This document shows positions 2,751 through 59,012 of a DNA stretch of 64,000 bases, in pieces. This DNA is from a virus, in IMG/VR virus record IMGVR_UViG_3300018083_000446, positions 1 to 64,000 of that record. One strand, written 5' to 3'. The position numbers were made by a program, and so were the translations under genes. The notes under the pieces were generated by a model, which ran no database searches, was not told the origin of the DNA, and worked only from the letters and a program-made list of their open reading frames with translations. How positions within the stretch are numbered: the first letter of the stretch is position 1; each line of letters starts with the position of its first letter.

Positions 2751-5700
2751 CTAGCCTCTCGCCATAGCAATCATAGCACGCATATCCATTTCGACATCTG
2801 CTGGTGATTCATAGCTGGAGTAGCTAGCGTTGAGGTTCAGGTTGTACGTATCGCCTGGCATGGGTTGTTGGCGTGACATCTGGGCTAGCATCTTGGCAGC
2901 GCTAGTGTGCAAACCAGTGATGTATTCACCACCATGCACGACCGCTACCATTGGCTTACCCCACGGCCCAGGAACCATACCACCCTTCTGGAACTCAGGT
3001 AGGTCAGCACCCAACCCTCGAGTCGGGCTAGGCAACACAGGAGCCTCGTATTCAGCTCGTTCGCGCTCTTCGCGTAGTCGCTTCAAAGCACCGATGGCGT
3101 TGTTCACAGAGTCGGTGAATGCTTCGGCGGACCTACGCATAGCAGCGAAGTTGCCACTCAGGATTTCCTGAATGTTGTCCACCAACGGGCGCATTTGTTC
3201 GCCACCCTTCTTGAGGACGTCCGCGGCTTTCTGGGCGAACTCTTTCTCGAGGATGTCGATCTTGCGCATCGTGTTCTCGTGGAGGTCCTGGATTTCACGT
3301 TCGCCTTGTTCACGTATCTTACGCTGCTTTTCGTCCATCGCTTCGTTGATGGATTGGATACGCTTGTCGCGTTCCTTTTCAGCGCGCGCGATCGAACGCG
3401 CTAGACCTTCATCTTCGAGCTTGTCGTTGAAGTCCTGAGTCTCTTGTTCTAGTTGGCGCTCGAAATCGTTGTTCTCTTGCTCGAGCTGTCGTTCGAATGC
3501 AGCGTCTTCTGCTTGGCGCGCACGTCGAGCAGCGCGTTGATCGTTCTCTTCTTTGATCTTGGCTTCTAGAGCAGCTTTGTCCAGCTCGAAGTCACGTGCT
3601 ATGTCTTGCTGTTTGTTGACGAACTCGCGTTCGATATCAGCACGACGATCGTCGTAACGCTCTCGAGCAGCAGCGCGTTGCTTGTCGTCCGTCGCATCCG
3701 CCAGCGAGTCTTCGAGGTCGACCTTCGCTGCGTTGAGGTCGCGTGTACGTTTGAGTTCGTTATCGGACAGAGCCTTGGAATGATCTGCTTCCAGTTCGGC
3801 CTTGCTCTTGATAGCGTCTTTGGCTGCGTCTTCGTCTTCCTGTTGTTCCTTGCGACGACGCTTCTTTTCGTCTTGTGCATCTTTCTGTTGTTGGCGTCGT
3901 GCATCCTGGCTATCACTCAAGCCGCTACGCAACCCACGTTCCTCACGCGCACGCGCGAGGTTGTCGAGCATATCCTGGATACGTTCGTTCGTATCCTCGA
4001 TCACGTCAGCGATAGACTTAGCAGCTTCGATAATCGTTTCGTTTATCTTGCGGCCAACTTCTTCGCCTATGTCAGTCATCTTGGCCTGCATGTCCGAACC
4101 AAGCTGATCAACCTGGGCGATGATGCTATACATCTCACCGACGAGATCGTCAACAAGGCTGGCCGCGGTCCCACGTATCGGACGCTTTGCAGCTTCCAAT
4201 CGTGCAACGACTGCGTACTCGAGATCGGCTACGATATCGGTGGCGGCTTCGACTACATCGTAGGAATTCTCTTCTATGCCTTGTTCGAAGCCTGTGGTAA
4301 CGTCCTCGCCCAGGTCCTCGAACTTCTTGGACGGTGATCGAGCGTCCAACGCTGCCCTAGCGGAATTGAGAACACCTTGCGCTAGTGCGGTTGCTGCACG
4401 ACCTACTTCAGCGATGCCGTTCGTGATAGCCCCGGTCAAGCCTTGAACCACGGCTCGACCTGCTTCTGTACCAGCCACCAATAGCTGGCCGGCTAAGCCT
4501 TGAATGATGGCCACGACCTGACCGACCCACGTAGTTACAGCACCAACCGCGGTTGCCAGCGCTCCGCTAATGGCTGTGACAACGCCATTCCACGCGTCTG
4601 TTACGGTGGACAGGATCGTTGACAGAGCTCCCGAAATAGTGGACGTGATGGTATTCCAGCCGCTGGTTATCGAAGAGTCCAACGCGGTCATGGCTTCTTG
4701 GACTGCAGTACGCATAGCCAACCAAGTGCCTTGGGTCTTCGACAGTAGCATCTCCCAAGCTTGGCCGATCACCTGGCCCATTGCTACTATACCAGATTGG
4801 ACTATGCGTATTTCAGTACCCAGCTCGCTGAAGAACCCACCTATCCCAGCAACAGCTGCAGCAGTCTTACCTTGGATATCACCCCAGTTGTTTGACCACG
4901 CCGCTGTCAACAGCGCTACCACAGCTATGATTGCTATGATGGCGATAGTCAACGGACCGCCCAACACAGCTACAATAGCCGTAATAACGCCGATGGAGGT
5001 TACGATGATACCCGTCAAAGCAGTGAGCGCAGCCCCGATGCTAGTCAGGACTCCAGCGATAACCCCGGCCACTTGCCACAGAGCAAACGCAGCGATAACC
5101 GCCAATACGGCTTCTTTGTGTTCCCACAAGAACTTCGTTAGGCCAATCACGGCGTTTATCAAAGGGGTGATAATGGTCAACACGTGCTGACCGGCTTCCC
5201 CAAAGTGGCTTGTGGCTTTGGCGGCTGATTCGGCTGCGGCTGTGTAGTTGCCTTGCAGAATGAACTGCAACGATTCAACTATGCCGCTAACAGCTATCAA
5301 GGCCTGGGTTACTAGCTCACCCGCTACCCCAGCTTCAGCGGCCCATGGAGCCCATGCCTCTCCTAGTTCAGACAGCTTCTTCCCGATAGCATCTAGGATT
5401 TCACCGATAGTGGGAAGCTTGACACCCGCCTTATCGAGATGGTCTATGAGCTTCAGGATGCCAGTGGTTATCAACCCAACCGCCAACAAGAACCCGCCCA
5501 TGGACAATACAGCGCTGGCTATGGCCGCTACGATATTGCCAGCGATGATAGCCCCCAGACCTAGAGCAATATTCTTGAACAACTCCATGGCTGGTTCTGC
5601 CAGTCCGAACGCGTCAACGAACTCTCGGACCTGTTGTATGGCGTTGGCGAACGCGTCGAGCATGGACTTGCCGAAGTCTACGACTTGTTGGCTCAGCGCA

Positions 5701-6911
5701 GTGAAGTCAGCTTCCTTTAGGCCCTGCAAGAACGTCACTAGGTCATGCGCAGGCTGGGCTAGCGCATCGACGAACGTCTTACCAAACGCGTAGGCCAGCA
5801 CCTGGACGTTGTTCCAAGCGATACCCATCTGCGCGTTCAACGGCTTGAGGAGCTGGTCTACGAGTTGGGTGACCTGCAGACGCTCAAACGATCCGCGCAA
5901 TTCGTCGATCTGATCCTGGGTGGCATTCGCCAAAATGAGGAACGCAGCACCAGTACGTTGGAGGCCCAAGGTTGATATGGCTTGCAGGCGTTGTTCTTCA
6001 GTCAGTTTGCCAGCTGCTACGGCTTCATCGCTGAATGCGTTGTGCAGCTGTTGCATGACCTCGTCCATACCACGAGCATTGCCCGCGGAATCGAACAACG
6101 AAATGCCGTACTCGTCCATTACCTTTTGCGCGTCCTTGGATGGCCTGACCAAACGTTGAATCACACCACGCAAGGACGTCGCAGCCACGGAACCCGTGAC
6201 ACCGTTCTTACCTAGCAAAGCAGTAGCCAATGCCAGGTCTTCAATCGTGAACCCTGCAGCCTTGAATGCAGGCGCTGAATATTGTACAGCCGTGCCAAAG
6301 TCGGTGAATGTTAGAGCTGAGTTCTGTGCTACGACTGTAGCGGCTGTAGTAACGCGATCAATCTCTTCGACGCCGATACCAAAGGCGTTCATCGCAGTAG
6401 CGGTGAGTTTGGCAGCCGCTGCCAAACCAATCTCACCACCAGATGCAATGGTCAAGTCCTGGACAGCCTTTAGCGCACCACCCATGACGTCCGAAATGGG
6501 TACACCAGCACGAGCTAGTTCAGTAGCCGCCTTACTAAGGTCGGTCATACCTAACGTACCCACTCGAGCGAGGCTGGTGATAGACCCTTCGAGAGCGTCC
6601 ATCTGTTCATCAGTCGATCCGGTTAGAGCTTGGGTCAACGCCATGCTCTGTTCGAAGTCAGCTGCGAACTTTATGGAAGCAGCGCCGGCTAGCGCGACTG
6701 CACCGCCTACCACGACAGCAGCAGTCGTGACAGCACTGGCCATGCCAGTGAATGCGGATGCAGCCGCGCCAGCGGCCCCCCCGGACTCCGTCTCCATCCG
6801 GCGCGCGACACGCTGGATGGATAGGAGTCGACTTTCTACAACCGCAGCATCGCGGTTGAACACCGCCATGCCTGCGATAACTGCGGTTACACCAACTGGT
6901 GGGAACGTCAC
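2751..6911 (-). CDS. Tail tape measure protein
   Basis: 1386 residues, by far the longest gene in the window. The N-terminal quarter has the core of TP901-type tape measures (Ala/Gly-rich helices, then a long amphipathic region with the FADFEQSMALTQALTGS and GVTGSVAATSLRG motifs). The middle (about 450-700) holds several strongly hydrophobic helices, as expected for a protein that reaches the host membrane. Residues about 930-1250 are a highly charged Glu/Lys/Arg coiled coil. The protein sets tail length and is ejected ahead of the DNA. Its ATG overlaps the stop of the frameshifted tail chaperone (ATGA at 6911-6908), the standard arrangement. Confidence 0.95.
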   Translation of the reverse strand: MTFPPVGVTAVIAGMAVFNRDAAVVESRLLSIQRVARRMETESGGAAGAAASAFTGMASAVTTAAVVVGGAVALAGAASIKFAADFEQSMALTQALTGSTDEQMDALEGSITSLARVGTLGMTDLSKAATELARAGVPISDVMGGALKAVQDLTIASGGEIGLAAAAKLTATAMNAFGIGVEEIDRVTTAATVVAQNSALTFTDFGTAVQYSAPAFKAAGFTIEDLALATALLGKNGVTGSVAATSLRGVIQRLVRPSKDAQKVMDEYGISLFDSAGNARGMDEVMQQLHNAFSDEAVAAGKLTEEQRLQAISTLGLQRTGAAFLILANATQDQIDELRGSFERLQVTQLVDQLLKPLNAQMGIAWNNVQVLAYAFGKTFVDALAQPAHDLVTFLQGLKEADFTALSQQVVDFGKSMLDAFANAIQQVREFVDAFGLAEPAMELFKNIALGLGAIIAGNIVAAIASAVLSMGGFLLAVGLITTGILKLIDHLDKAGVKLPTIGEILDAIGKKLSELGEAWAPWAAEAGVAGELVTQALIAVSGIVESLQFILQGNYTAAAESAAKATSHFGEAGQHVLTIITPLINAVIGLTKFLWEHKEAVLAVIAAFALWQVAGVIAGVLTSIGAALTALTGIIVTSIGVITAIVAVLGGPLTIAIIAIIAVVALLTAAWSNNWGDIQGKTAAAVAGIGGFFSELGTEIRIVQSGIVAMGQVIGQAWEMLLSKTQGTWLAMRTAVQEAMTALDSSITSGWNTITSTISGALSTILSTVTDAWNGVVTAISGALATAVGAVTTWVGQVVAIIQGLAGQLLVAGTEAGRAVVQGLTGAITNGIAEVGRAATALAQGVLNSARAALDARSPSKKFEDLGEDVTTGFEQGIEENSYDVVEAATDIVADLEYAVVARLEAAKRPIRGTAASLVDDLVGEMYSIIAQVDQLGSDMQAKMTDIGEEVGRKINETIIEAAKSIADVIEDTNERIQDMLDNLARAREERGLRSGLSDSQDARRQQQKDAQDEKKRRRKEQQEDEDAAKDAIKSKAELEADHSKALSDNELKRTRDLNAAKVDLEDSLADATDDKQRAAARERYDDRRADIEREFVNKQQDIARDFELDKAALEAKIKEENDQRAARRARQAEDAAFERQLEQENNDFERQLEQETQDFNDKLEDEGLARSIARAEKERDKRIQSINEAMDEKQRKIREQGEREIQDLHENTMRKIDILEKEFAQKAADVLKKGGEQMRPLVDNIQEILSGNFAAMRRSAEAFTDSVNNAIGALKRLREERERAEYEAPVLPSPTRGLGADLPEFQKGGMVPGPWGKPMVAVVHGGEYITGLHTSAAKMLAQMSRQQPMPGDTYNLNLNASYSSYESPADVEMDMRAMIAMARG

Positions 6912-7724
6912 CCGCGCCTACCCTTCCGCTTGTTCGATTCGGATTTAGACTTCCTATCGACAGCGTCTGCCACGTGCGCCTCTATCGAAAGGTGAGTGCG
7001 GTAGTGCGCCACAGCGTTGGCGCGATCAAACCAGGTCAACTTCTCCGTCCAGTCCGTCCACGGGCAGTGCACGTACTGGGCTGCTTCCCTGGCTTCGAAC
7101 TCCGGCACCGTCTCCAGCACTCGTTCCATCGCCAAGCCTACGTTGAGCTTCGATGGAAGTTGGTACTCGTGGAGCGGTATCCCGTTCCTGGTTACCCCGA
7201 AAGGAAGCCTGGGCGGCCACTACGTCTACCTCCAGCGTACTGCCGGTGAAGCGTAGGATTTCGCTCAACAACCTTCCTTGGTCTTCCTCGGGTAGCGCGT
7301 ACAACTTTAGCCACTCCACGTAGCGTCGCACCCCTGTTGTAGGAATGTCGATGTCGTCGTAGACTGCTGTGATATCGTCAGACCACACAGTGGATTCGGG
7401 TGGTTCTAGGCCACGAGGGAGTTTGTGTACTGAAGTCCCCAGACCGTAGTACACCTTAGCGGCGAGCATTCCCCTATCGTAGTCGAAGTGCTGCAACTCG
7501 ATTACGTAGTTAGGATCGTTGGGGTTTTCCTCTTCACGGCCCTTCTCGTCGATGAAGACCTTAGGCGGGCGTGGCGGTACCAGCTTCCTATTGGCTTCAG
7601 CCAAGATCATAGCTGATACACGCTTCATTTTCAGTTCGAGGCCGTTTGCAGCCTTGAAGATTGATGGATCGGTCTGCGATCCCAGACCGTCTAGCACTTC
7701 GTTCGCGGCAGCGTCGTTGTTCAT
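6908..7724 (-). CDS. Tail assembly chaperone, +1 frameshifted long product (gpGT-like)
   Basis: Two overlapping minus-strand frames are both protein-like. Zero frame runs from ATG 7724. The +1 frame is closed by TAG codons until just before about 7215, then reads GVTRNGIPLHEYQLPSKL and continues with convincing protein to a stop at 6908, which overlaps the tape measure start. A +1 slip at the codon TTT (7202-7200) followed by C (7199) joins the frames at residue 175 and gives a product of about 271 residues. Tail chaperones directly upstream of tape measures are known to be made by programmed frameshifting, commonly -1; here the geometry requires +1 (or -2). The exact slip codon is inferred. 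Confidence 0.75.
7026..7724 (-). CDS. Tail assembly chaperone, unshifted product (gpG-like)
   Basis: Zero-frame product of 232 residues from ATG 7724. The first 175 residues are a mixed alpha/beta protein with a basic, Pro-rich segment (KLVPPRPPK). The last 57, after the proposed slip site, are low-complexity and Arg/Gly/Asp-rich, unlike a folded domain, which suggests that part is simply the unshifted tail. It lies between the tail tube gene block and the tape measure. A 16-bp palindrome (7790-7805) lies between it and the preceding gene. The role, keeping the tape measure soluble during tail assembly, is inferred from position. Confidence 0.7.
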   Translation of the reverse strand: MNNDAAANEVLDGLGSQTDPSIFKAANGLELKMKRVSAMILAEANRKLVPPRPPKVFIDEKGREEENPNDPNYVIELQHFDYDRGMLAAKVYYGLGTSVHKLPRGLEPPESTVWSDDITAVYDDIDIPTTGVRRYVEWLKLYALPEEDQGRLLSEILRFTGSTLEVDVVAAQASFRGNQERDTAPRVPTSIEAQRRLGDGTSAGDGAGVRSQGSSPVRALPVDGLDGEVDLV

Positions 7725-8030: not shown

Positions 8031-9533
8031 TTACGACCCCTTGATGAGGATGCCGTCAGCGCCACCAGTCGCCAGACCAGCACCGTAGACGACGTTGACA
8101 TCGGCTGAGCTAGACGCCAGCGCGTTGATACGCACGTTGGCTGGAATGACACCAACCGACTCAGGCGCCACGTACCACGAGTTACCACCGGAAATGGAGC
8201 GTAGGATGCGACCACCACCTGTAGCACCATCGTGAGCCATGTAGCCTACCTGGCGTGCAGGGAACTGAATGTCACGAACAGCGCCCGTGCCATTCCCGGG
8301 GAACGCCTTCTCGAACCACGACGCACCCGAGTCACGCGTGTAGTACAAGCGCCCGCCAGCGGACCCGACCCACCACTCGGCAGGTCCCCTCATACAAACT
8401 GCGCTTAGTGACACACCGGGTGCAGGTCCGCCCGCAGGAGCCGCCGCCCATGTTCCGCCGCCGTTTGTGGTATACAGCACGATGTTACCATCGCCGACTG
8501 CTACCACGTTCTGAGCGTCAGAGCCGTGGATGGCGTTGAGGTTCTGGACGGTGAGCGAACCGGCTTCCTGGACGTTCACGCTGGAGGCGATGTCGGAGGT
8601 GAAGTAGATGTATCCACCTTCTCCAACGATCCAGTTTAGCGTGGAGCCCAAGCTGAACCCGTCACGCGGGCCCTTGGTTGCGACGAACCCGTTGGACATC
8701 TGCGTCCAGGTCCCGGTGCCAGCCAAAAGAGACGCCATCGACAGGTAGTGGATGGAATCGCTATCGTCTGACAGGACCACCAAGAACGTGCCTGAGCCCA
8801 TGATGCGTCGTGCGCCTTGCGTGGCACCCAACGACGCAATGGTGGACTCGATCCACGTCTGGCCACCATTGCGAGTGGCAACGATCTGAGCGTTCGCACC
8901 AGGTGAACCAGCTGCGTAGTTCTCCAGGACGAACACCTTGTTCGTGCCATCGGACGGAAGGCCGCACACGCCACAGTTGACCGCGTCAACGATGGCAACG
9001 TCCATGGCCTCGCGCGTGAGCTGTACGTCAGCTTGGCGAGCGAGGCCGATACGGAAGATCTCGTACGCTGCCTCACCGGTCATAGGCAAGGATTCGTTGA
9101 CGAGACCGCGCTCGTCAGCGTCCAGCGCGCCAAGGTCCTCGGTTGAGTAGCTGGTAGGACGTGCAGCCTCGAGCGCGAGAATCTTCGTCCAGCCGCCGTT
9201 GAAGTCCTTCGGGTCCTGGCAGTTACCGAAATGGACCTGTACGTCGTTGTCACAACCACGTAGGGCCAACTTGAGCATCAAGGACTTCTGGTCCAACAGG
9301 AACCGTGCAGTCATCTCGAGCTCAGGGTTACCTGGCGCACCGATGATCTTGCCAATGGGGACGAAGGAGTCGTACTGCCCGTCGGACGGGATACGCACGA
9401 CGGTAACGTCGCCCTGGTCGAACGTGAAGGCACCAGCCTTCCACAGGCCTTGGTATTGGGGTGGCGTCTCGGGCCCGGCTCGCTGCTCAAGCAAGAATAC
9501 CCGAGAATAACCAGTACGTACTGGTTCAGGCAT
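8031..9533 (-). CDS. Major tail tube protein fused to a C-terminal beta-propeller (BNR/Asp-box repeats)
   Basis: 500 residues. Residues 1-about 185 fit a siphovirus tail tube subunit (FDQGDVTVVRIPSDGQY, then EMTARFLLDQKSLML). From about 200 to the end the protein has repeated Asp-box-like turns: TRNGGQTW, TTNGGGTW, TRDSGASW and SISGGNSW, spaced as in sialidase-type or Ycf48-type propellers. Tube subunits carrying extra surface domains are known, usually Ig-like; a whole propeller is unusual. It would be displayed at high copy along the tail and could bind glycans. Position between connector genes and the tail chaperone supports the tube call. Tube assignment is moderately sure; the propeller repeats are plain in the sequence. 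Confidence 0.75.
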   Translation of the reverse strand: MPEPVRTGYSRVFLLEQRAGPETPPQYQGLWKAGAFTFDQGDVTVVRIPSDGQYDSFVPIGKIIGAPGNPELEMTARFLLDQKSLMLKLALRGCDNDVQVHFGNCQDPKDFNGGWTKILALEAARPTSYSTEDLGALDADERGLVNESLPMTGEAAYEIFRIGLARQADVQLTREAMDVAIVDAVNCGVCGLPSDGTNKVFVLENYAAGSPGANAQIVATRNGGQTWIESTIASLGATQGARRIMGSGTFLVVLSDDSDSIHYLSMASLLAGTGTWTQMSNGFVATKGPRDGFSLGSTLNWIVGEGGYIYFTSDIASSVNVQEAGSLTVQNLNAIHGSDAQNVVAVGDGNIVLYTTNGGGTWAAAPAGGPAPGVSLSAVCMRGPAEWWVGSAGGRLYYTRDSGASWFEKAFPGNGTGAVRDIQFPARQVGYMAHDGATGGGRILRSISGGNSWYVAPESVGVIPANVRINALASSSADVNVVYGAGLATGGADGILIKGS

Positions 9534-11455: not shown

Positions 11456-11773
11456 CTAGCGCGGAGGGCCCGCAGCCGCTAGCGCAGGTGATGCTTCTGT
11501 GCTGGCGTAGAGTCGAAACTCCTCTCGGTTCAGGAAGTGGTCAACATCGTCCTTGTACACCCAACGTACCTTGTGGTCAGGGTCTGACCCGAAACGATAG
11601 CGCGCACCGGTCTTCATACCAGTGTATGAAATGGGAGCGGCTGCGTCGCCAACGTATTCGATCAAAACAGCCCCGTCCTGCTGTGACGGAGTGGAAGGGT
11701 TCATCGCTTGAGCGTAGACATCGAATGAAGGTAGCGACGGAGCTCCACCACCACCAGAACAACCACAGGGCAT
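11456..11773 (-). CDS. C-terminal domain of the glycosyltransferase fusion with its own start signal
   Basis: In frame with the large glycosyltransferase gene, codon 772 is an ATG (11773-11771) preceded on the minus strand by GGGAGGAAAGA, an ideal ribosome binding site. The 105 residues that follow begin with a Cys/Gly motif (MPCGCSGGGG) and contain YTGMKTGARYRFG and a WVYKDDVDHFL segment, a compact small domain resembling stand-alone phage proteins encoded near head-tail genes. It may be made both as the tail of the fusion and as a separate protein, or the fusion may be a recent loss of a stop codon. Confidence 0.5.
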   Translation of the reverse strand: MPCGCSGGGGAPSLPSFDVYAQAMNPSTPSQQDGAVLIEYVGDAAAPISYTGMKTGARYRFGSDPDHKVRWVYKDDVDHFLNREEFRLYASTEASPALAAAGPPR

Positions 11774-14086
11774 TCTTTCCTCCCGAGTAATGTATTTCGA
11801 CCAGCGCTTGAAGATCTCTTCCTTTAGTGTCTCACGTTCCGAAAAGCCTTCTTCACGCCTTCGTCCCGTATCCATCCTGTAATGAAAGAGAGGCACAGCG
11901 AGTCTAGTGCCACAATAATCCGCCGCCACAACTTTGAGTGCGAAGTCCCAATCTTCCCACGCAGGAAGCTCTTCATCGAACCCTCCTACTTTTTCCCAGA
12001 CTGCACGCGGGTACATACAAGTGACAGGCCAAGGAAGTTGGCGGAGTACACTATCACATCCGTCCCACTCAGGGGCGTGATGGACTTCGCCGGTGTCGTG
12101 TCGGTACCAGTCGGTGTATACGAACCCGCCCACGCGATGTTGTTCGACATACATGAGCTCGAGAGCTTCGGGTTGGAAGTAGTCGTCCGCGTCAAGGAAA
12201 ACGAACGTTTCGCCTCTAGCAGCAGCCATCCCGAAGTTGCGAGCAGCACCAGCACCGATAGCGCCGGTAGTGTGGACAACATGTGCCCAAGCAGGAAGCC
12301 CAGGCAAAGGGCCACCAGTGTCGTTGACAACAATCGCTTCCCACCAGCGGAACGTTTGAGATCGTACTGAGTCGAGCGCGTCGAGTACATAGCGTTCATG
12401 GCCTGGTCCCACCGGTATGATAACCGAGACTAAACTGAATTCGTGCATCGGGATGATTGGGTCGGTTCGTTCGTCGTCCACAGGTGCTAGCCATGGAGTT
12501 AGATCGGTCTGCTTTCCCCACGGGTACCATTGGTGCCAACCCCAATCTTCCTGGGTGTTGGACATTGAGTCGGGGCGATTACGATACCTGAGGACGACTG
12601 CGTCTGTCACACGCTTCGCATTGGCTCCGAACGAGGTCGCTCGACACCAAAAGTCCGCGTCTTCCGCAGTCGGACACCGGCGGCGGTACCCACCAACTCT
12701 CTGCCATATGGAACGACGATACATCGACGTGGAACAGATCTGGTTCTGGTGTTTCATCTGGCGGCGATACTCGAACTCGGGTGGCCATGGTGACTTCCAT
12801 TCCTCTCCACTAGGCTCGATCACCGACATTGCACCGTACGCTATGTGGATAGAACGATCACGGTCCAACGCATTCGACAACACGTGCAGCACGTTGGACC
12901 CGAGCATGTTATCAGAGTCTAGTGGGACGATGTATTTGCCACGTGCGGCTGATATGCCAGCGTTCAAGGTCTCTGCTAGGTAGAGGTTCCCAGGGTTGGT
13001 GATGATGCGTACACGAGGGTTGTCTCCAGCAACCTCTCGAACGATCTGGATAGACCGGTCAGTAGATGCATCGTCAACAACGACGAGTTCCCAATCCGCT
13101 TGAGGCTGGTCCAACACCGATTTCACAGAGTCAGCGATGTACGCTTCCATGTTGTGGACAGGCATCACGACGCTGATCTTAGGGCCCGTGTGTGGTTCGA
13201 GTAGTGAACGATACAGATCGTGGTAACGACGTATCGCCACTTCCCACGTGAAGTTACGCAACACATGAGCGCGAGCCGCAGCCCCTAACCGCCTACGATG
13301 TTTGAAACAGTACTCGAGCCCCTCTACCAACGAAGCGTAGTCGTTAGCAGGCGCCAACCAGCCTGTCTCTTTGTGGATCACGATCTCGTTTTGACCGCCC
13401 CAAGCCCATCCTAGGATCGGCACGCCAGCTGCCATTGCTTCTAGCGTACCTATCCCAAACGTCTCCCGAGTGGTGCACAAGTACACACCAGCGTTCTGAA
13501 TGTAGGCCTTGTGCTCTCCGAGGCTGGACACACCAACAGCTTCGACGTTGTCAGCAGGTGGCATACCCCAGTGGACTGTCGAGATGAACTTACGATTGGG
13601 GGCCAACTTGGACAGTTCCCACAATGGAGTAGGATCACATATCGGGTCGACTCGAGTTTTGTTCCAGAGCACGTACCCTTTGTTGGCGACTGGCTCCCAC
13701 GCTGTGGGGTCTATGCCGTGGTACAACACTTGAGCGTTGATGTTAGTCCCTCGAGCGATGGCTTGCGCAACCCACTTGGACGGAGCTGTCACAACGTCGG
13801 CTGCACGCATAGCCTTGATAACGTCGCGGTTCATCTTGAGGGCCCATTTCGGCCACTCGAACCCGTACCAGTACAACCCGTGGCAATGCGACACCACAGG
13901 TATTGTAGCGTCTGCATCGGCTGCCACACCGGCGTGTGTGGCGACGAGGTCGGCTGCGCCCGGCTCATCCACGATCTCCCACCCCATTGTGGGCAACCAT
14001 TGGTTCTGAGCTTCGACGACTCGCCTTATACCACCGTCGCCACGATCCTCGCCAATGAACCGAGGGCCAATAAACAGTTTAGCCAT
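11456..14086 (-). CDS. Three-domain glycosyltransferase (GT4 + GT2 + GT2) with small C-terminal domain
   Basis: 876 residues. Residues 1-about 290 are a GT-B (GT4-like) transferase with the retaining-enzyme motif FGIGTLEAMAAGVPILG. Residues about 300-530 are a GT-A/GT2 domain (ISVVMPVHNMEAYI, VVVDDAST, and DSDNM as the DxD-type metal site). Residues about 555-770 are a second GT2 domain (VSVIIPVGPGHERY, LDADDYF). A small unrelated domain follows (residue 772 on). Such a protein could add several sugars in series. It sits last in a run of seven carbohydrate genes with 4-8 base overlaps, inside the virion gene operon, so the acceptor may be a phage structural protein; that is inference. Confidence 0.85.
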   Translation of the reverse strand: MAKLFIGPRFIGEDRGDGGIRRVVEAQNQWLPTMGWEIVDEPGAADLVATHAGVAADADATIPVVSHCHGLYWYGFEWPKWALKMNRDVIKAMRAADVVTAPSKWVAQAIARGTNINAQVLYHGIDPTAWEPVANKGYVLWNKTRVDPICDPTPLWELSKLAPNRKFISTVHWGMPPADNVEAVGVSSLGEHKAYIQNAGVYLCTTRETFGIGTLEAMAAGVPILGWAWGGQNEIVIHKETGWLAPANDYASLVEGLEYCFKHRRRLGAAARAHVLRNFTWEVAIRRYHDLYRSLLEPHTGPKISVVMPVHNMEAYIADSVKSVLDQPQADWELVVVDDASTDRSIQIVREVAGDNPRVRIITNPGNLYLAETLNAGISAARGKYIVPLDSDNMLGSNVLHVLSNALDRDRSIHIAYGAMSVIEPSGEEWKSPWPPEFEYRRQMKHQNQICSTSMYRRSIWQRVGGYRRRCPTAEDADFWCRATSFGANAKRVTDAVVLRYRNRPDSMSNTQEDWGWHQWYPWGKQTDLTPWLAPVDDERTDPIIPMHEFSLVSVIIPVGPGHERYVLDALDSVRSQTFRWWEAIVVNDTGGPLPGLPAWAHVVHTTGAIGAGAARNFGMAAARGETFVFLDADDYFQPEALELMYVEQHRVGGFVYTDWYRHDTGEVHHAPEWDGCDSVLRQLPWPVTCMYPRAVWEKVGGFDEELPAWEDWDFALKVVAADYCGTRLAVPLFHYRMDTGRRREEGFSERETLKEEIFKRWSKYITREERMPCGCSGGGGAPSLPSFDVYAQAMNPSTPSQQDGAVLIEYVGDAAAPISYTGMKTGARYRFGSDPDHKVRWVYKDDVDHFLNREEFRLYASTEASPALAAAGPPR

Positions 14087-14546
14087 TCACATACACCTGC
14101 ACGTATCCTGGCAACGACCCCGCGACATTGGTCCAAGACCTTTGCAGGTCATTGGTCTTGTCCTCATCGAAGCGGAGTTTGCCACACACTAGTTCACCTT
14201 TTCCAAATGGAAAAGCTCGCGCAACTACGTAGTGCCCTTCGAGCGCGACGTAAGGTGCCGCGTCCAACGGACTGTGGATAGACGTGACCAGATCGAACTG
14301 GCCTATAATTTCACCAATGATTAACCGTGCATACAGCCTCGCATCTCGTTTTACGTCTGGATCGAATGTTTGGCCAATGGAGGGTTTACAACCGAACATG
14401 CGTGCGGCTCGCACCATGTATCCGTTGTGGCATGCTAGGTCGAGGTACGAGCGTGGGATACCCAGGCATGCAAACATGGCATGCATGGCACGCTCACTAG
14501 CCTCGCGCACTTCAGTAGACGGGTCGATCACCGACTTCGTACTCAC
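14079..14546 (-). CDS. SAM-dependent methyltransferase-like protein
   Basis: 155 residues. Motif I-like YLDLACHNGYMVRAARMFG (about 38-56) followed by a DPDV segment and FDLVTS, an arrangement of class I methyltransferases, but shorter than most. The start overlaps the next glycosyltransferase by 35 bases. One copy of the 16-bp palindrome lies inside the coding sequence (14199-14214) and encodes AFPFGKGE in frame. Possible sugar O-methyltransferase given its neighbours; the catalytic assignment is tentative. Confidence 0.6.
   Translation of the reverse strand: MSTKSVIDPSTEVREASERAMHAMFACLGIPRSYLDLACHNGYMVRAARMFGCKPSIGQTFDPDVKRDARLYARLIIGEIIGQFDLVTSIHSPLDAAPYVALEGHYVVARAFPFGKGELVCGKLRFDEDKTNDLQRSWTNVAGSLPGYVQVYVNG
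14199..14214. repeat. Palindromic element, copy 2 (inside a coding region)
   Basis: TTTTCCAAATGGAAAA, here read through as part of the methyltransferase-like gene. This is the only copy that is clearly within a gene. Confidence 0.9.
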
Positions 14547-15183
14547 CTATGTGCTCCCAAGGCCCCACTAGATTCAACGCTGCAGCGCGTAGCCCATTGT
14601 GCATGTTGCAACGATCAGAGTAGTCGCGTTCACAGACGTACGCATCCACCCCTTCAAGGAACGGACCGACCTTTTCGTAGAACCGCTTCGACGCCAGGAA
14701 CGGACGCGTCCCGAATACGAACCCACTCCCGAACTCTAGGTGGAGCCACCACCCAGGTCCAACCGTGAACTTGGTGAAACACGGTAGGTTAGGGTGTATC
14801 GGTCCTAGACGTACGAAGTCGTATTCTTCTTCGCGTATCAACCAGATTGCTTTATCGAGATTGATTGAGCCTCGATCATACGAATCTTGGAGTTCCCAAT
14901 CGTCAGTAGTGTACAGCCAAAGTTCGTTGTGCGCCACTCTAGCCAACGCTCGATTGAGGGATGCCCCAATGCCACCGTGCGGCCCGGTTACGATTGAAAC
15001 GTCCTCGCCGGGGAAATGCGTGATGTTAGGCGTCACAGGCGATCCATCGTCCGCTATGATGTATCGAATGGTCTCCGTGCGACATTTGAGGTTCTCCACC
15101 AACGCATCTAGGCAAGTCTGGGCGTAGGCGTGGCGTGGAGCGCTGGGTTCGGGGTTGTACGTAGTCATGACCACCGCTACCAT
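14512..15183 (-). CDS. GT2-family glycosyltransferase
   Basis: 223 residues with VAVVMTTYNPEP at the N-terminus, a nucleotide-binding YIIADDGSP and LWLYTTDDWEL in place of a canonical DxD, all features of GT-A fold family 2 enzymes. Short for the family; lacks membrane segments, so it is cytoplasmic. Its start overlaps the end of the 15177-15878 gene. Third of four glycosyltransferase genes in a row (reading 5' to 3' on the minus strand). Donor and acceptor cannot be read from sequence. Confidence 0.8.
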   Translation of the reverse strand: MVAVVMTTYNPEPSAPRHAYAQTCLDALVENLKCRTETIRYIIADDGSPVTPNITHFPGEDVSIVTGPHGGIGASLNRALARVAHNELWLYTTDDWELQDSYDRGSINLDKAIWLIREEEYDFVRLGPIHPNLPCFTKFTVGPGWWLHLEFGSGFVFGTRPFLASKRFYEKVGPFLEGVDAYVCERDYSDRCNMHNGLRAAALNLVGPWEHIGEYEVGDRPVY

Positions 15184-15878
15184 GATCGTTCGGCTCCTAT
15201 GTGCACGAACAGATCACCGTAGGGTTTGACTTCTTGTACGGGCCAGATCACGCCTTGACGCGCTTCAGAAATGTGCGCCACGGCGAACTCGGTCTGGCCT
15301 GGTTCGAGCCCCTCAGGCCAAGGACCCACGCTTCTCTCCCAACCCACTGTCTCGATCCTGGGGTGGCCAGAAAAAACGTGAGGTTCAGCTGATGATGGAT
15401 CGAGTCGTAACCATAGACGACCGTGGCTGGAGGCGAATTCACCGCGGAGTGGCTGAGTGAAACCCAAGTATCCCAACCGCATGCAGCCAGCGCCGAGTTC
15501 GTTAAGCGCTCCGATGAAGAGGTCAAGGTCGAGCTCACGTGTCAACTCCCAATCATCTTCCAGAACCAGAACATGGCTGGCAAAGTTGTGTACTAGCTGT
15601 GTCGCCAAGTTGTAGTTCGCCCCATAGCCTGAACGACGTGAATTCGATGTGGTCACTAGCTCGAGCGGGATGGGCGACGTGTCGGTGATCTCGTGGAGCG
15701 TTTGAATGTACTCGTCCGTATCGCCGTCACTGGCAATGTGCACGGACAGCGCTCCGCTCGTGCGCACGTGTGCCAACGCAGACGTGAGCGTCGTTTTGGC
15801 ATACTCGAGGCGCCCGTACGTCAACAACATGATGCACACGTTACTCATTGGGGTCCTCTTGACGAGGCACCCATTCAC
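15177..15878 (-). CDS. GT2-like glycosyltransferase
   Basis: 233 residues. The N-terminus NVCIMLLTYGRLEYAKTTL and the motif VLVLEDDWELT (an acidic metal-binding motif) mark a GT-A fold. The preferred start is uncertain: an internal Met (MSNVCIM) some 10 codons in, close to the end of the preceding gene, may be the true one. Overlaps both neighbours, so it belongs to the same coupled set. Acceptor unknown. Confidence 0.75.
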   Translation of the reverse strand: MNGCLVKRTPMSNVCIMLLTYGRLEYAKTTLTSALAHVRTSGALSVHIASDGDTDEYIQTLHEITDTSPIPLELVTTSNSRRSGYGANYNLATQLVHNFASHVLVLEDDWELTRELDLDLFIGALNELGAGCMRLGYLGFTQPLRGEFASSHGRLWLRLDPSSAEPHVFSGHPRIETVGWERSVGPWPEGLEPGQTEFAVAHISEARQGVIWPVQEVKPYGDLFVHIGAERSW

Positions 15879-16533
15879 GTGTTACGAGATCACGTGTCTC
15901 CAGGATAACCCCTTGCCACGATGCCTTCGAGGCCGTATCGGCTTCAGCGTGACGACGGTAGTTGTAGAGTGGAGCGCCGTTGGCAACTGGCCAGTGACGA
16001 CCTGCACGAGGGTAATTCCCGATGATGATCGAAAGGAGTGCGGCATCCGGAGCACCCGACGCTGATTGAACTGGAAAACCACCCGTTCGTCGCCACAACG
16101 ACTTAGTAACCATTGCCGCATTACAGGCGAGCTCCTGGGTCTCACCGGTGTCCGAATAACGAACACCCACGTAGTAGTAACCGTACGGATCGCCTTGACG
16201 CGCTTGGTATTCCTTGACGCACTCTTCGATACAAGTAGGCTCGAGCCAATCATCCGACCCCAGCATAAAAACGAGTTCGCTCGGCGCAACCGCGACACCG
16301 ATGTTGAATGCATGTGCTACCCCCAGGTACCAAGGGCTCTTCCACACAGAGTACGCCAGGTCACTGGGGACCATGTGTAGGCTGACATCAGCCATGTCGT
16401 CTACGATCTGGAGATGGATACCCCCATGCGACAGATGGTTCCACGTTTGGTCGCTCACTGAACGGATGCACTCGTCCAACCACCTACGATTAGACGGGTT
16501 AGGGCCGACAGGGATCGTAACGGTCACCATCAT
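15841..16533 (-). CDS. GT2-family glycosyltransferase
   Basis: 230 residues starting MMVTVTIPVGPNPSN, then LQIVDDMAD and FMLGSDDWLEPTC, the classic GT2 donor-binding and DxD-type motifs. Start ATG overlaps the stop of the reductase gene by 4 bases. It would transfer a sugar from a nucleotide donor, perhaps the deoxy sugar made by the two upstream short-chain dehydrogenases. Confidence 0.82.
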   Translation of the reverse strand: MMVTVTIPVGPNPSNRRWLDECIRSVSDQTWNHLSHGGIHLQIVDDMADVSLHMVPSDLAYSVWKSPWYLGVAHAFNIGVAVAPSELVFMLGSDDWLEPTCIEECVKEYQARQGDPYGYYYVGVRYSDTGETQELACNAAMVTKSLWRRTGGFPVQSASGAPDAALLSIIIGNYPRAGRHWPVANGAPLYNYRRHAEADTASKASWQGVILETRDLVTREWVPRQEDPNE

Positions 16534-17336
16534 ACCGTAATTGGTTCTCGATCGTAGGCTTCGACCAACCGCGTGAGGTCGCGCAGCAGACTAACCGTCG
16601 GTTTGAGGCCTCGATACACTATAGGTTCGTCCACTGGAACGATGTTGATATCCTTGGCGAACGCATCCTTGAGGTCCAGTAGCAGTTGGTACTTCGTCGT
16701 GACGGGCGCTGCCACGTGGTACAGGCTAGGGCTCATGTGGAACATCTTGATGAGCATATCTGCCACATCGTAGACCGTACTACCCGCCCAATACGCCTGC
16801 GTGTAACCTTCGATGGTGGCACCGGCTGGTTGATCCAGGAACCACCGTAGCAACCCGTGCTGCAACCCGATGAACGACGTACGAACGATAACGGTATCAG
16901 GGACTTCACCCATCACTTTGCTACGCCCGTAGAGGTTGATCGGGTCTGTACGATCGAGTATGCTTCGCAACCCAGGTGCGTACCCGCTGAACACGCAGTC
17001 AGTAGATACCAGGATCACTTTAGAAGCGTGGAACACGTCCTTCACAACCCACGGCCCGAGCGCGTTGGCACGCACCATATCGGAAGGCATGTGCAACCCT
17101 GTCATGTGATGCGGCGTAAGGCCTGCGCAATTCACGACGACGTGAGGGTGGATAGCACCTTCTACCTTACGCATGGCGTCCCAGTCGGAGATATCATGCT
17201 CCGAACCTGTTACCCACGTCTGGTACTTGGCTAGGCGCGCCGCTGTCGCAACAGCACGCCCGAGCATACCACGCCCGCCTAACACCAACACTCGACCCTT
17301 GAAACCTTCGGGTTCTTTGAGTTCGACTTCAGACAC
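16530..17336 (-). CDS. NAD(P)-dependent nucleotide-sugar reductase (RmlD/CapF-like SDR)
   Basis: 268 residues. Rossmann motif LVLGGRGMLGRAVATAA (about 16-32), NCAGLTPHH, the STDCVFSG serine motif and the YGRSKVMGE Tyr-x3-Lys catalytic pair, in the order seen in dTDP-4-dehydrorhamnose reductases and related extended SDRs. It follows a 4,6-dehydratase-like gene with an 8-base overlap, so together they could convert a 4-keto-6-deoxy intermediate to a deoxy sugar nucleotide. Which sugar is made is not decided by sequence. Confidence 0.82.
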   Translation of the reverse strand: MSEVELKEPEGFKGRVLVLGGRGMLGRAVATAARLAKYQTWVTGSEHDISDWDAMRKVEGAIHPHVVVNCAGLTPHHMTGLHMPSDMVRANALGPWVVKDVFHASKVILVSTDCVFSGYAPGLRSILDRTDPINLYGRSKVMGEVPDTVIVRTSFIGLQHGLLRWFLDQPAGATIEGYTQAYWAGSTVYDVADMLIKMFHMSPSLYHVAAPVTTKYQLLLDLKDAFAKDINIVPVDEPIVYRGLKPTVSLLRDLTRLVEAYDREPITV

Positions 17337-18261
17337 CTTCGCTCTCCCTTATCATCTGGACTAGCTCTGTGCGGGAGAGCGGTTCGGCTAGATTGGAACT
17401 CATCGTAGGTAGTTCGCGTGTGTAGTCCTCGCTACCTGGCGGCATGATGGCGTAGAAGTTGTCGTACGCCTTGGTGCGATAGAGTTCGTAGTGGGTGATG
17501 AGGTCTTCGTGCTGCTTTTCACCAGGACGCTTCCCAACTACTTGGATTCGCCCAGCCTCGAACTCAGACCCACACACTTCCAACACAGCGTGCGCTATGT
17601 CGATCATACGTGCAGCGCGTGGGACAGGGACCGTGATCGAACCTCTAGGGGCGGCGAATGCCTTGACGATGGTATCCACAGCATCGTTGATGCTCATCCA
17701 GAACCTGGTCATGTCAGGGTCTGTTACACGAATGCAACCGTCTTCGCGGAATTGTTCACGCATGACAGGCACGACAGACCCAGTCGAACCAATGACGTTC
17801 CCGTAACGACACGCGTTGTACCCGTACTCAGATACCAGGCGTTCCATGAGCGCCTTGGTGATCCCATACGTGTTGACTGGCTGTGCAGCTTTGTCGGTGG
17901 ATATGGCTACCAAGCTTGCCATGTGTACGGTACGTGCGGCGTGCAACACGGTGCCTGATCCGACGACGTTCACCCTAGCGAACTCGTCTACGTTGAACTC
18001 ACCTTCGGGGATGAACTTCGCAGCTGCAGCGTGAATCACTGCATCGTGGCCTACCATCAGGTTCTGGACACGACCCAAGTCTGTGATATCCCCAAGCACG
18101 AATCGTGCATCGGGGAACTGTTGTGCACAACGGTATTGCTTTTCCTCGTCACGTGAGAGGATAGTGAACTTGGCGGGCCAACCGTCGCGCTGTGCACGAC
18201 GTAGAATCCCGCGACCCAAGTAACCAGTCCCCCCGGTGATCAAGATATTGCCTTTCAGCAT
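17329..18261 (-). CDS. Nucleotide-sugar 4,6-dehydratase (FlaA1/CapE-like SDR)
   Basis: 310 residues from ATG 18261, which overlaps the stop of the repeat-protein gene (TGATG). Motifs in order: ITGGTGYLGRGILRRA (NAD binding), HAAAAKFIPEGE, STDKAAQPVNTYGITKALME (S/T-D-K and YxxxK catalytic residues), RYGNVIGSTGSVVPVM, MTRFWM and GEKQHEDLI. This series is characteristic of UDP-GlcNAc 4,6-dehydratases. It is the first gene of the carbohydrate block, and its coupling to a virion protein gene suggests that glycan synthesis is timed with virion assembly. Confidence 0.87.
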   Translation of the reverse strand: MLKGNILITGGTGYLGRGILRRAQRDGWPAKFTILSRDEEKQYRCAQQFPDARFVLGDITDLGRVQNLMVGHDAVIHAAAAKFIPEGEFNVDEFARVNVVGSGTVLHAARTVHMASLVAISTDKAAQPVNTYGITKALMERLVSEYGYNACRYGNVIGSTGSVVPVMREQFREDGCIRVTDPDMTRFWMSINDAVDTIVKAFAAPRGSITVPVPRAARMIDIAHAVLEVCGSEFEAGRIQVVGKRPGEKQHEDLITHYELYRTKAYDNFYAIMPPGSEDYTRELPTMSSNLAEPLSRTELVQMIRESEGV

Positions 18262-20684
18262 CAAATCTCCCAGGGTTTGACCGCCTCTGCGGGCGGTTCG
18301 CAATTAGAGGGTTCGTACACCCAATCGTTATCACCGTAGTCTCGTGCTACTCCTACAGGCCAGACCACCTCCCTATCTAACGTATTGTCTTGTTCGCACG
18401 CTACGTAGTTCTCGAGCAACGGTGGTGCAATGTAGATCGCACCTAAGTTCTGAGCTCGTGGGCCTAGCGTGCCTCGCAGCGCTGTGGGTGGTGCAGCGAA
18501 TCGTATCTCGGCTCTAGCTCCGACACGACCTACCAATCCACCTTGGCGGAACAACAGACCAGCTACGCTTTGTGCATGCGTGCCTACGCGTGCTACCAAT
18601 ACCGTACGACGAATCGCTTGGTATGTGTTGGTGGCGCGTGGGCCGATTGTTATCGTAGCTGCAAACCCTCGCTGTGGGACCATTACAAAGTTGGGGCGAG
18701 CGCCCGCGCGCCCGACTGCAGGAGCGGATCGTACGCTAAGGATAACGAAGTCCACCCTAGCACCAGCGCGCCCCAACACACTGCCACTAGTAGTGCGCGT
18801 GGCTGCCGTTTGCGATTGAGTACCTACACTAGCCGTTCCAACTACAGTGATCCTCTTGACACCAGCGTTCTGCGCTCGAGAACCAGTGTGGCCAGCAGCA
18901 CTCCTCGACCCGCCAATAGCACCGACCAGCGTACCACGCGTGCCTGCGCTACCAACAGCAGCGCCGCTCGAGTTCTTCGCACCAACGTCCTGTGCGCGGG
19001 ACCCAACACTACCTTGCGCCGTACCAGTTAGGTTAGTGACGGTTTGTGCAGAGTTCTGAGCGTGGGTTCCTACTCGACCGCTAACGCTGGCGGTGGTTGA
19101 ATGCGCCCCAGCCGTGGTGGCTGTGGGGCCACTACGTGCAACGTCAGTCGCAGTGATTGATTTGACGCCTGCGTTCTGTGCACGTGAACCTGCATAGCCA
19201 GCTACGAACTTGGCTCCGCCTTGTGCACCCACCGTGGCAGCATGTGTGCCTACACGACCCACCACTGCAGACGTACGTTGTGCTACGTCTACATGTGTAG
19301 CTCGACTGCCAACGCTGGCGACTTGGGCGGTGGTGATGCGCTTGACGCCTGCATTGGTGGCGCGTGGACCTACACTACCTGCGACAGTCGCAGGAGCTGC
19401 TGCTGGTATAACAAACTGTGCCCACGAAACGAGTATGCGACGCTCGATGACTTCCGCGCCAACGTTGGTAGCACGTGGGCCAACGTGGCCCAAGGATGGT
19501 GGGCGTGTAGCAGCTGCTGGTATCTCTAGTTGTACCCACGATACCTGAGCACGCGCTGTTATACCTTGGCTACCAACGGTTTGAGCGTGCGCTCCCACAC
19601 GCCCCACCACCGTCGATGTGTTGGTACGTGCGACGGCCGTAGTGACCTTAGCGCCTACTGAAGCTACGTGGGGGTTGGCGATCTTCTTGACGCCAACCGC
19701 TACAGCCCTAAAGCCTGTCTTGCCAGCGATCGCACCGCTAACACCAGTGATCTGTGAACCAGCGGTTGTCGCGTGGGTGCCAACTTTAGCTGTGGCCGCT
19801 ACACTAGTGCTATGTACGCCTACGTCAGTCGCACGTGGGCCGACTCGAGCGGCGCCTGTAGCAGTCGCACTACGTACGCCTACATTCTGGGCACGTGGGC
19901 CAGCTGTTCCAACCAGTGGTATACCAGCTGCGGCGGTTGGTACTTGTAGTGATACGTAGGATACTACGGCACGCGGTTGTGGAATAAACCCTACGTTGGT
20001 AGCACGTGGACCAAGTTTGCCAACTATCGCACCCACGCTCTGTTGCATGAACGTGAGGTTAGCGCTGAACTCAACCCACGGGTTTAGGTCAGTAGTTAGC
20101 CCATCAGAATGTGCAAAGTCTGACGCGGCTGAATCACCAAAGCGAAGCGTCGTTGTGAACGAGGTAGACGTACCAGCTTTGCGAAAGCCAATCTCAATAA
20201 CGAGGTAGTCGCCAGCGCTGAACGTACGTGACGTTAGCGTGAGGGTTGTGGCTTCAGCGGCGTCCTGGAAACGCCGTGTCAGAGCAGAAGTGGTAAACTC
20301 AGGTGGGGCAGCAGCTGTGTTATCGCTAGCACTAACAGCTAGCAGGTCATTGATGTGTGTGCCCGCGCTGGAGACCTGGCGTATGTTGATCGCTACGGTC
20401 GAGTTGAGGTTAGCGTTCGACTCTAGACCACGAATGACGCCGGTGACCGTACCACTGATGGTCTGCGCCGCCATCGGTCCAACGATGTACTGGCGCATGA
20501 CCGTCGTCGCCGGGTTGGCGGCTGACGGGCTTGCACTAGCGTGGTTCGCAAGGGTTGTGTTTGCCTTAGTTGTCGAACCAATCTCGCGGTCGAAGCCCGT
20601 TGTAGCTGTGGCTGTCCAACCAGTTCCTACGGCTGGCGAAATCGCCGGCGTGGTGCCGTCTGGTAGGTAGATCCTCGTAGCCAC
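18261..20684 (-). CDS. Large virion protein made of about 24 Gly/Arg/Ala repeats
   Basis: 807 residues. The first about 215 resemble a jelly-roll-like virion domain. Then come about 24 repeats of 18-25 residues with the core G-x-x-G-(P/T/S/A)-(R/H)-A-(T/Q)-x-(V/A)-G. Three repeats carry an insert of the type VSWVQLEIPAAA. A 50-residue, Cys-containing, acidic C-terminus ends the protein. No known fold is recognised for the repeats; they could form a beta-solenoid or fibre shaft, and are rich in Ser and Thr. Single copies of the motif occur in the three other virion proteins at 1-2748, 20689-22674 and 22674-23810. It is directly upstream of the glycan block. Confidence 0.75.
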   Translation of the reverse strand: MATRIYLPDGTTPAISPAVGTGWTATATTGFDREIGSTTKANTTLANHASASPSAANPATTVMRQYIVGPMAAQTISGTVTGVIRGLESNANLNSTVAINIRQVSSAGTHINDLLAVSASDNTAAAPPEFTTSALTRRFQDAAEATTLTLTSRTFSAGDYLVIEIGFRKAGTSTSFTTTLRFGDSAASDFAHSDGLTTDLNPWVEFSANLTFMQQSVGAIVGKLGPRATNVGFIPQPRAVVSYVSLQVPTAAAGIPLVGTAGPRAQNVGVRSATATGAARVGPRATDVGVHSTSVAATAKVGTHATTAGSQITGVSGAIAGKTGFRAVAVGVKKIANPHVASVGAKVTTAVARTNTSTVVGRVGAHAQTVGSQGITARAQVSWVQLEIPAAATRPPSLGHVGPRATNVGAEVIERRILVSWAQFVIPAAAPATVAGSVGPRATNAGVKRITTAQVASVGSRATHVDVAQRTSAVVGRVGTHAATVGAQGGAKFVAGYAGSRAQNAGVKSITATDVARSGPTATTAGAHSTTASVSGRVGTHAQNSAQTVTNLTGTAQGSVGSRAQDVGAKNSSGAAVGSAGTRGTLVGAIGGSRSAAGHTGSRAQNAGVKRITVVGTASVGTQSQTAATRTTSGSVLGRAGARVDFVILSVRSAPAVGRAGARPNFVMVPQRGFAATITIGPRATNTYQAIRRTVLVARVGTHAQSVAGLLFRQGGLVGRVGARAEIRFAAPPTALRGTLGPRAQNLGAIYIAPPLLENYVACEQDNTLDREVVWPVGVARDYGDNDWVYEPSNCEPPAEAVKPWEI
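18438..20030 (-). repeat. Protein-level tandem repeats, about 60-bp period
   Basis: DNA encoding the repeats of the 807-residue protein. The unit is about 54-75 bp; Gly-Pro-Arg-Ala-Thr/Gln-Asn codons recur (for example the sense-strand word GGCCCACGTGC). Units are diverged rather than identical, so this is an old expansion. Confidence 0.8.
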
Positions 20685-53661: not shown

Positions 53662-53871
53662 GTGCCACACATCGTAACGTTTCCTAAGTGCCAGACGTGC
53701 GGGTCTGGCGAAGCACGCACGTGCCCTGTGTGTGCAGAATGGACTTGCTTTGAATGTTTGATTGTAGTAGACGAGCATGATGATTCAGACTGTGTCCACA
53801 TCCTCCCCCCACCACTCCCCCCAGGCGGGTGGTCCGATAGCGGGCCCGGAGTGTCACAGAGGGACCTGTAG
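53662..53871 (+). CDS. Zinc-finger small protein overlapping the polymerase start
   Basis: 69 residues, GTG start at about 53662. CQTC, CPVC and CFEC give three CxxC pairs (about 10, 20 and 30), a strong zinc-binding pattern, followed by an Asp/His and Pro-rich tail. It overlaps the polymerase gene by 95 bases. Confidence 0.6.
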   Translation: MPHIVTFPKCQTCGSGEARTCPVCAEWTCFECLIVVDEHDDSDCVHILPPPLPPGGWSDSGPGVSQRDL

Positions 53872-58850: not shown

Positions 58851-59012
58851 ATGGACAAGTGCGAGAATTGCGGTGAAGAATTCAAACTACCAGCGCTCCG
58901 CTACACAACCGTGCCACCCGAATGGGCGCTCAAGTATCGAGCGGAAGGCCACGTGGACGGGCGCGCTTATTTGTGCGGGTCCTGCCGTAAGCTAATAAAG
59001 GCGCTTAGGTGA
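58851..59012 (+). CDS. Zinc-ribbon micro-protein
   Basis: 53 residues. Two CxxC pairs (CENC near the start, CGSC near the end) about 38 residues apart. Its stop overlaps the GTG of the tail protein gene (GTGA at 59009-59012). A basic C-terminus suggests nucleic-acid binding. Confidence 0.6.
   Translation: MDKCENCGEEFKLPALRYTTVPPEWALKYRAEGHVDGRAYLCGSCRKLIKALR

Follow-up and report, generated by a model that had tools for sequence, protein, structure and literature searches.

In an uncultured virus, two overlapping reading frames lie directly upstream of a tape measure gene, and the question that they raise is whether the second frame is a gene of its own or is entered by ribosomes that change frame, and, if so, where and in which direction. 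Frameshifting is general among tail assembly chaperone genes and is usually -1, while the accessible text of two studies considers a +1 shift very likely for HSTV-2 (PMC5009743, PMC8211752). No general motif has been identified for forward shifts, according to the accessible part of the PRFect paper (PMC10885494). We analysed a 64,000-nucleotide stretch of DNA, hereafter the window, which is part of a 64,973-base virus record; the features of the locus are read off its minus strand (Table 1). The preliminary description of this DNA had proposed a programmed +1 shift in which a Phe tRNA slips from TTT to TTC.

Two conserved frames upstream of a tape measure gene

The frame-0 product is called G and the extension read after the shift is called T. 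In the window, the +1 frame is open from 7219 to its TGA at 6910-6908 and overlaps frame 0 by 191 nt; when TTTC is read as one step, the result is an uninterrupted 271-aa protein. The stop codon of T and the start of the tape measure gene share the letters GTGA (6911-6908), so that the start is a GTG and not the ATG that the preliminary description had named. The rest of its layout stands: two protein-like frames over 6908-7724, the closure of the +1 frame by a TAG until just 5' of TTT-C and the exact coordinates of TTT-C. Residues 1-175 of G form a conserved core and the 57-aa tail beyond the slip site is not conserved. In 18 of the 25 distinct loci compared below, the frame-0 stop is reached no more than 54 nt past the site; the longest such distance, 171 nt, belongs to the window and L002.

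Table 1. Coordinates of the features of the frameshift locus in the window
Feature	Position	Strand	Details
Frame-0 ORF, G protein	7026..7724	-	ATG start at 7724, 232 aa
T extension, post-shift reading	6908..7198	-	96 codons and TGA
Tape measure protein ORF	2751..6911	-	1386 aa, GTG start; phrog_58 match, E 2.5e-74
TAG, last +1-frame stop and 5' limit of the shift	7220..7222	-	+1 frame open from 7219
TTT_C slip site	7199..7202	-	P-site Phe codon TTT 7202-7200 (codon 175) and C 7199
E-site codon TCC (Ser)	7203..7205	-	TCC in 11/25 loci
Frame-0 A-site codon CGG	7197..7199	-	Rare in window ORFs
Shine-Dalgarno-like GGAGG	7229..7233	-	26 nt 5' of TTT

Relatives were collected from IMG/VR viral contigs by seven scans with the G protein and one with the T domain. 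The 29 non-refetched loci and the window make 30 loci examined, and leaving out five near-duplicates (L006, L059, L061, L062 and L064) gives 25 distinct loci, which fall into 24 clusters when G is grouped at 90% identity and into 16 at 50%. One of the six patterns in the first G scan (FRGNQERD) spanned the slip-site residues, as did the pattern MDKFPSDE in one later scan that gave no new locus; none of the other patterns spanned them. Ten of the 29 relatives were retrieved via the T domain alone, and these carry the same TTT_C site. Searching 50,697 phage records with tblastn yielded no cultured relative for T of the window or for G of L007, L009, L006, L040, L065, L068 and L060, and G of the window gave a single match, to a fecal phage record at E 0.6. 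A megablast search with positions 1-25000 of the window returned no match, and scans of genome contigs for relatives found none. Two of the loci examined, L060 and L064, are different chaperone loci about 75 kb apart on one 143-kb viral contig (IMGVR_UViG_3300031566_000001), which is either a join of two viruses or one virus with two copies.

The junction between the frames

Both the frame-0 ORF and the +1 ORF are kept in 30/30 loci, the second frame is always +1, and the overlap of each locus contains one in-frame TTT_C and no more. Ten +1-permissive tetranucleotides were tested; TTTC is the only one present in the overlap of the window and the only one common to all 25 distinct loci. The nearest upstream limit is set by L007, where the +1 frame opens just two codons 5' of TTT, and the nearest downstream limit by five loci (L015, L060, L063, L067 and L068) whose frame-0 stop lies 6 nt 3' of TTT, which together leave about five codons for the junction. 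Counted from the first post-shift codon, the first 15 residues of the 25 T domains form a gap-free alignment, and a conserved pattern, x-V-x-R-x-G-x-P-I, begins directly after the slip. In this alignment of homologues the junction falls at TTT_C, where the preliminary description had put it, and the invariance of TTT_C and the +1-frame conservation of the post-slip residues support the shift that it proposed.

The phase of the substitutions also switches frame at the site. Between the window and L002, substitutions 5' of the site are distributed as 16/6/38 over the three frame-0 codon positions, with third positions dominant, and those 3' of the site as 4/2/11 over the +1-frame codon positions in the overlap and 1/0/4 in T alone. 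More distant pairs have the same tendency, less sharply.

A -2 frameshift at this position or close to it would enter the same frame with one extra residue, and for such a shift the accessible text of PMC3498833 gives a precedent, the tail chaperone of phage Mu. We consider it improbable here: at TCC_TTT in the window, the tRNA-Phe in the P site would have to settle on a mismatched CCU, and the upstream bases required for -2 differ among relatives, whereas the C required for +1 is invariant. The -1 slippery heptamer of most phage chaperones was rejected as well, the second frame being +1 in 30/30 loci.

A little less probable again is that T is a separate gene, translated from an internal start or by re-initiation at the G stop. 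The GGAGG found 20-26 nt 5' of the site in 19/25 loci would fit such a gene, as would the +1-frame GTG or ATG that a few loci have near the site. However, the first +1-frame start codon is scattered between 131 nt upstream and 211 nt downstream of TTT and occupies no position common to all 25 loci, and conservation begins at the first residues after the slip, while in the window the first possible start, a TTG, lies 67 nt past TTT and the G stop 171 nt past it. Among the 25 loci we looked for homologues in which the second frame is an independent gene with a common start, and there are none.

Two further explanations have a negligible probability. A sequencing error or a decayed gene might be suspected in a single uncultured contig, but it is refuted by the relatives, in which the same split recurs in 25 distinct loci from many metagenomes, and substitution patterns on either side of the site are those of living genes. 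Transcriptional slippage would likewise give a fused product, but it normally requires long homopolymers and the run in the window is three T only. A programmed +1 ribosomal frameshift at UUU_C is the reading that we consider very likely on the evidence of these sequences; its products would be G and a G-T fusion, the arrangement of lambda gpG/gpGT with the direction changed to +1.

Codon context, upstream element and RNA structure

The Phe codon at the site is TTT in 25/25 loci, compared with 45 TTT and 70 TTC at the remaining Phe codons of these genes (45/115; Fisher P = 4e-9, relatedness not corrected), and TTT makes up 15% of the Phe codons (80/534) in mechanically chosen window ORFs. Therefore, the conservation of TTT_C exceeds chance. 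Outside the slip sites, in-frame TTT_C is found 64 times in the contigs' ORFs against 86.5 expected (P 0.003), a count that took 16 sequences as input and from which the 13 recognised shift sites were removed. We discounted this as evidence of avoidance, as the Cys codon TGT gives the same ratio (0.74). Because the depletion elsewhere is mild and 5/25 G genes have an additional in-frame TTT_C 5' of the slip site, TTT_C alone is probably not enough for shifting.

On either side of TTT, the codon context is partly constrained. The C that follows is invariant (25/25), and the frame-0 A-site codon is CGG in nine loci, CCG in five, CTG in four, CAA in three, CGC in two, and CCA and CAG in one each. 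CGG accounts for 8% of Arg codons, or 5.3 per 1000 codons, in mechanically chosen window ORFs. A CGN codon is present at the A site in 11/25 loci and absent in 14/25, and consequently a rare-codon pause cannot account for all of them. The E-site codon is TCC in 11 loci, TCT in two and another codon in 12 (including GCC, ATG, CAG, AAA and GGG); where it encodes Ser, it is TCY in 13/13 cases, compared with 85/238 Ser codons elsewhere in G (P 3e-6, relatedness not corrected).

In 19/25 loci the GGAGG element ends 21, 24 or 27 nt before TTT, which leaves 20, 23 or 26 nt between the two. GAGG or AGGAG occupies its place in L003, L005 and L054, and L007, L015 and L040 have no GGAGG-like element there. 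Over positions -36 to -15, the mean pairing energy with the 16S rRNA tail is -9.64 kcal/mol, versus -6.96 kcal/mol (sd 0.56) for synonymous redraws, none of which is as low (0/200); the redraws follow codon usage in the G genes themselves and may overlook preferences that are local. When 22 windows along G are compared, just the two over the GGAGG place stand out (0/150 each). Effects of Shine-Dalgarno-type elements are known at 3 nt for +1 shifts and 10-14 nt for -1 shifts, as given in the accessible text of PMC3673220. With a gap of 20-26 nt, the GGAGG falls at neither spacing.

Downstream RNA structure was rejected as a family-wide stimulator. Its mean z is 0.06 over +8 to +68 and -0.59 over +8 to +108, with controls at -0.38 and -0.41; the window and L002 reach z of -3.0 and -3.1 in the longer stretch.

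Proposed mechanism, known counterparts and protein identity

The sequences themselves show two conserved frames, an invariant UUU_C, where the junction lies and a tape measure gene downstream; from these we infer the slip itself, its direction and its rate, together with the chaperone role of the products. Most ribosomes would stay in frame 0 and make the 232-aa G protein. In the remainder, the P-site tRNA-Phe, which would decode UUU by wobble, may move one base onto UUC, its Watson-Crick codon, where pairing is better, while the A site is slow to fill. Reading would then continue as GGG GUA ACC in the +1 frame and produce the 271-aa G-T fusion, which would end at the tape measure start. The predicted junction peptide is FTGSTLEVDVVAAQASFGVTR for the +1 shift, the same with FF for a -2 shift and FTGSTLEVDVVAAQASFR for the unshifted product. 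By analogy with lambda gpG/gpGT, G and G-T may coat the tape measure protein and recruit the tail tube protein.

The UUU_C slip site is familiar chiefly from influenza and certain plant viruses. In influenza PA-X, the slip was located by mass spectrometry and changes to UCC lowered frameshifting by 40-70%; the accessible text of the same paper predicts a class of UUU_C sites with restricted A- and E-site codons, its examples favouring CGN (PMC3498833). A UUU_CGN slip site has also been described for amalgaviruses (accessible text of PMC5052127). The window's UCC_UUU_CGG has the same E- and P-site codons as the influenza A PA-X site UCC_UUU_CGU, followed by the same C, and shifts in the same predicted +1 direction, although PA-X and the amalgaviruses belong to RNA viruses translated by eukaryotic ribosomes. 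Whereas those sites favour CGN, the window's family uses CGG, CCG, CTG, CAA, CGC, CCA or CAG, and it appears to act like the UUU_CGN kind on a wider site.

Among DNA viruses, TTT-CGC has been proposed for a +1 shift of HF1-like haloviruses, from six genomes and without experiment in the accessible text (PMC7230728). We checked HF2, in which AAG_TTT_CGC_AGA_TAG is present and the +1 frame is open. The HF1-like haloviruses (HF2, HSTV-2) share the +1 direction of the second frame with the window but are archaeal myoviruses, and hhalign did not detect the HF2 chaperone as a homologue of the window's G family (probability 0.3). A UUU_C +1 chaperone shift is consequently not the first of its kind here, but a better supported variant of one already proposed. 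Searches of the open-access literature found no further phage case of the motif, a weak negative, as the phrase search even missed PMC7230728. The bacterial release factor 2 gene prfB likewise combines a +1 P-site slip with an upstream Shine-Dalgarno-like element; its slip occurs on a CUU that precedes a stop codon, and the element is 3 nt away (accessible text of PMC12421855); in contrast, the A-site codon here is a sense codon in 25/25 loci and the element is 20-26 nt away. In lambda, as in the window, a short ORF and its longer frameshifted form lie directly 5' of the tape measure gene, but lambda shifts -1 and the window would shift +1 at UUU_C.

What appears to be new in these sequences is the relaxed A-site codon, the upstream UCC preference and the GGAGG at 20-26 nt. 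The 25 diverged genes, all with UUU_C, supply a forward-shift motif whose E-site and A-site preferences are directly testable. They would also extend a slip site experimentally known in influenza to prokaryotic viruses, probably those of bacteria, and annotation programs could use the motif to recognise split chaperone genes of uncultured phages. A broader proposal, which we advance tentatively and with some doubt, is that UUU_C with an upstream UCC might be a general +1 slip signal for prokaryotic ribosomes that needs neither a stop codon nor a rare A-site codon, and that DNA phages, haloviruses and eukaryotic RNA viruses might each have arrived at it independently; in the phages studied here, the GGAGG at 20-26 nt might assist it as a new Shine-Dalgarno-like element of long range, outside both known acting spacings.

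We assign G and G-T as a putative tail assembly chaperone on the basis of position and layout, since neither G nor T has a significant family match and G has no significant fold match. Neither protein significantly matches a chaperone family in Pfam or PHROG, and both are without detectable sequence relation to known families. The fold search of G with Foldseek gave no significant match: the best PDB hit has E 2.0, the best BFVD hit is a Bacillus phage Staley protein at E 0.018, and the 'tape measure chaperone' of phage Maja is not significant at E 0.21. The Staley match is 152 aa long, a length shared by two genes of that phage, one of which lies two genes upstream of the phage's tape measure gene. 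A T profile compared with solved sequences found nothing significant. The AlphaFold model of G has a pLDDT of 77 overall, high to about residue 165 and below 50 after about residue 180, and the model of T (pLDDT 78) consists of three helices, of which the last spans about 40 residues. A tape measure family match lies 3' of the chaperone locus in the window and in seven of the eight relatives tested; in the eighth, L015, the downstream match is to a minor tail protein family.

Several other features of the window were noted. At the major tail protein position, 8031-9533 (minus strand) encodes a protein with a weak YCF48/BNR beta-propeller match (PF14870, E 2.1e-5, below the curated cut-off), and a minor tail protein match (phrog_538, E 2.2e-35) is found at 59009-60154 on the plus strand, opposite to the main tail genes. 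Between the tail and head genes, several ORFs over 11456-18303 (minus strand) resemble glycosyltransferases and sugar epimerases by eye, and the translation of an 807-aa ORF at 18261-20684 (minus strand), also judged by eye, has many degenerate VG-RATNVG-type repeats. A Uracil-DNA glycosylase domain (PF03167) and DNA polymerase A (PF00476) are found within one 821-aa ORF at 53777-56242 (plus strand), and the L002 contig has its polymerase A match in an 829-aa open frame.
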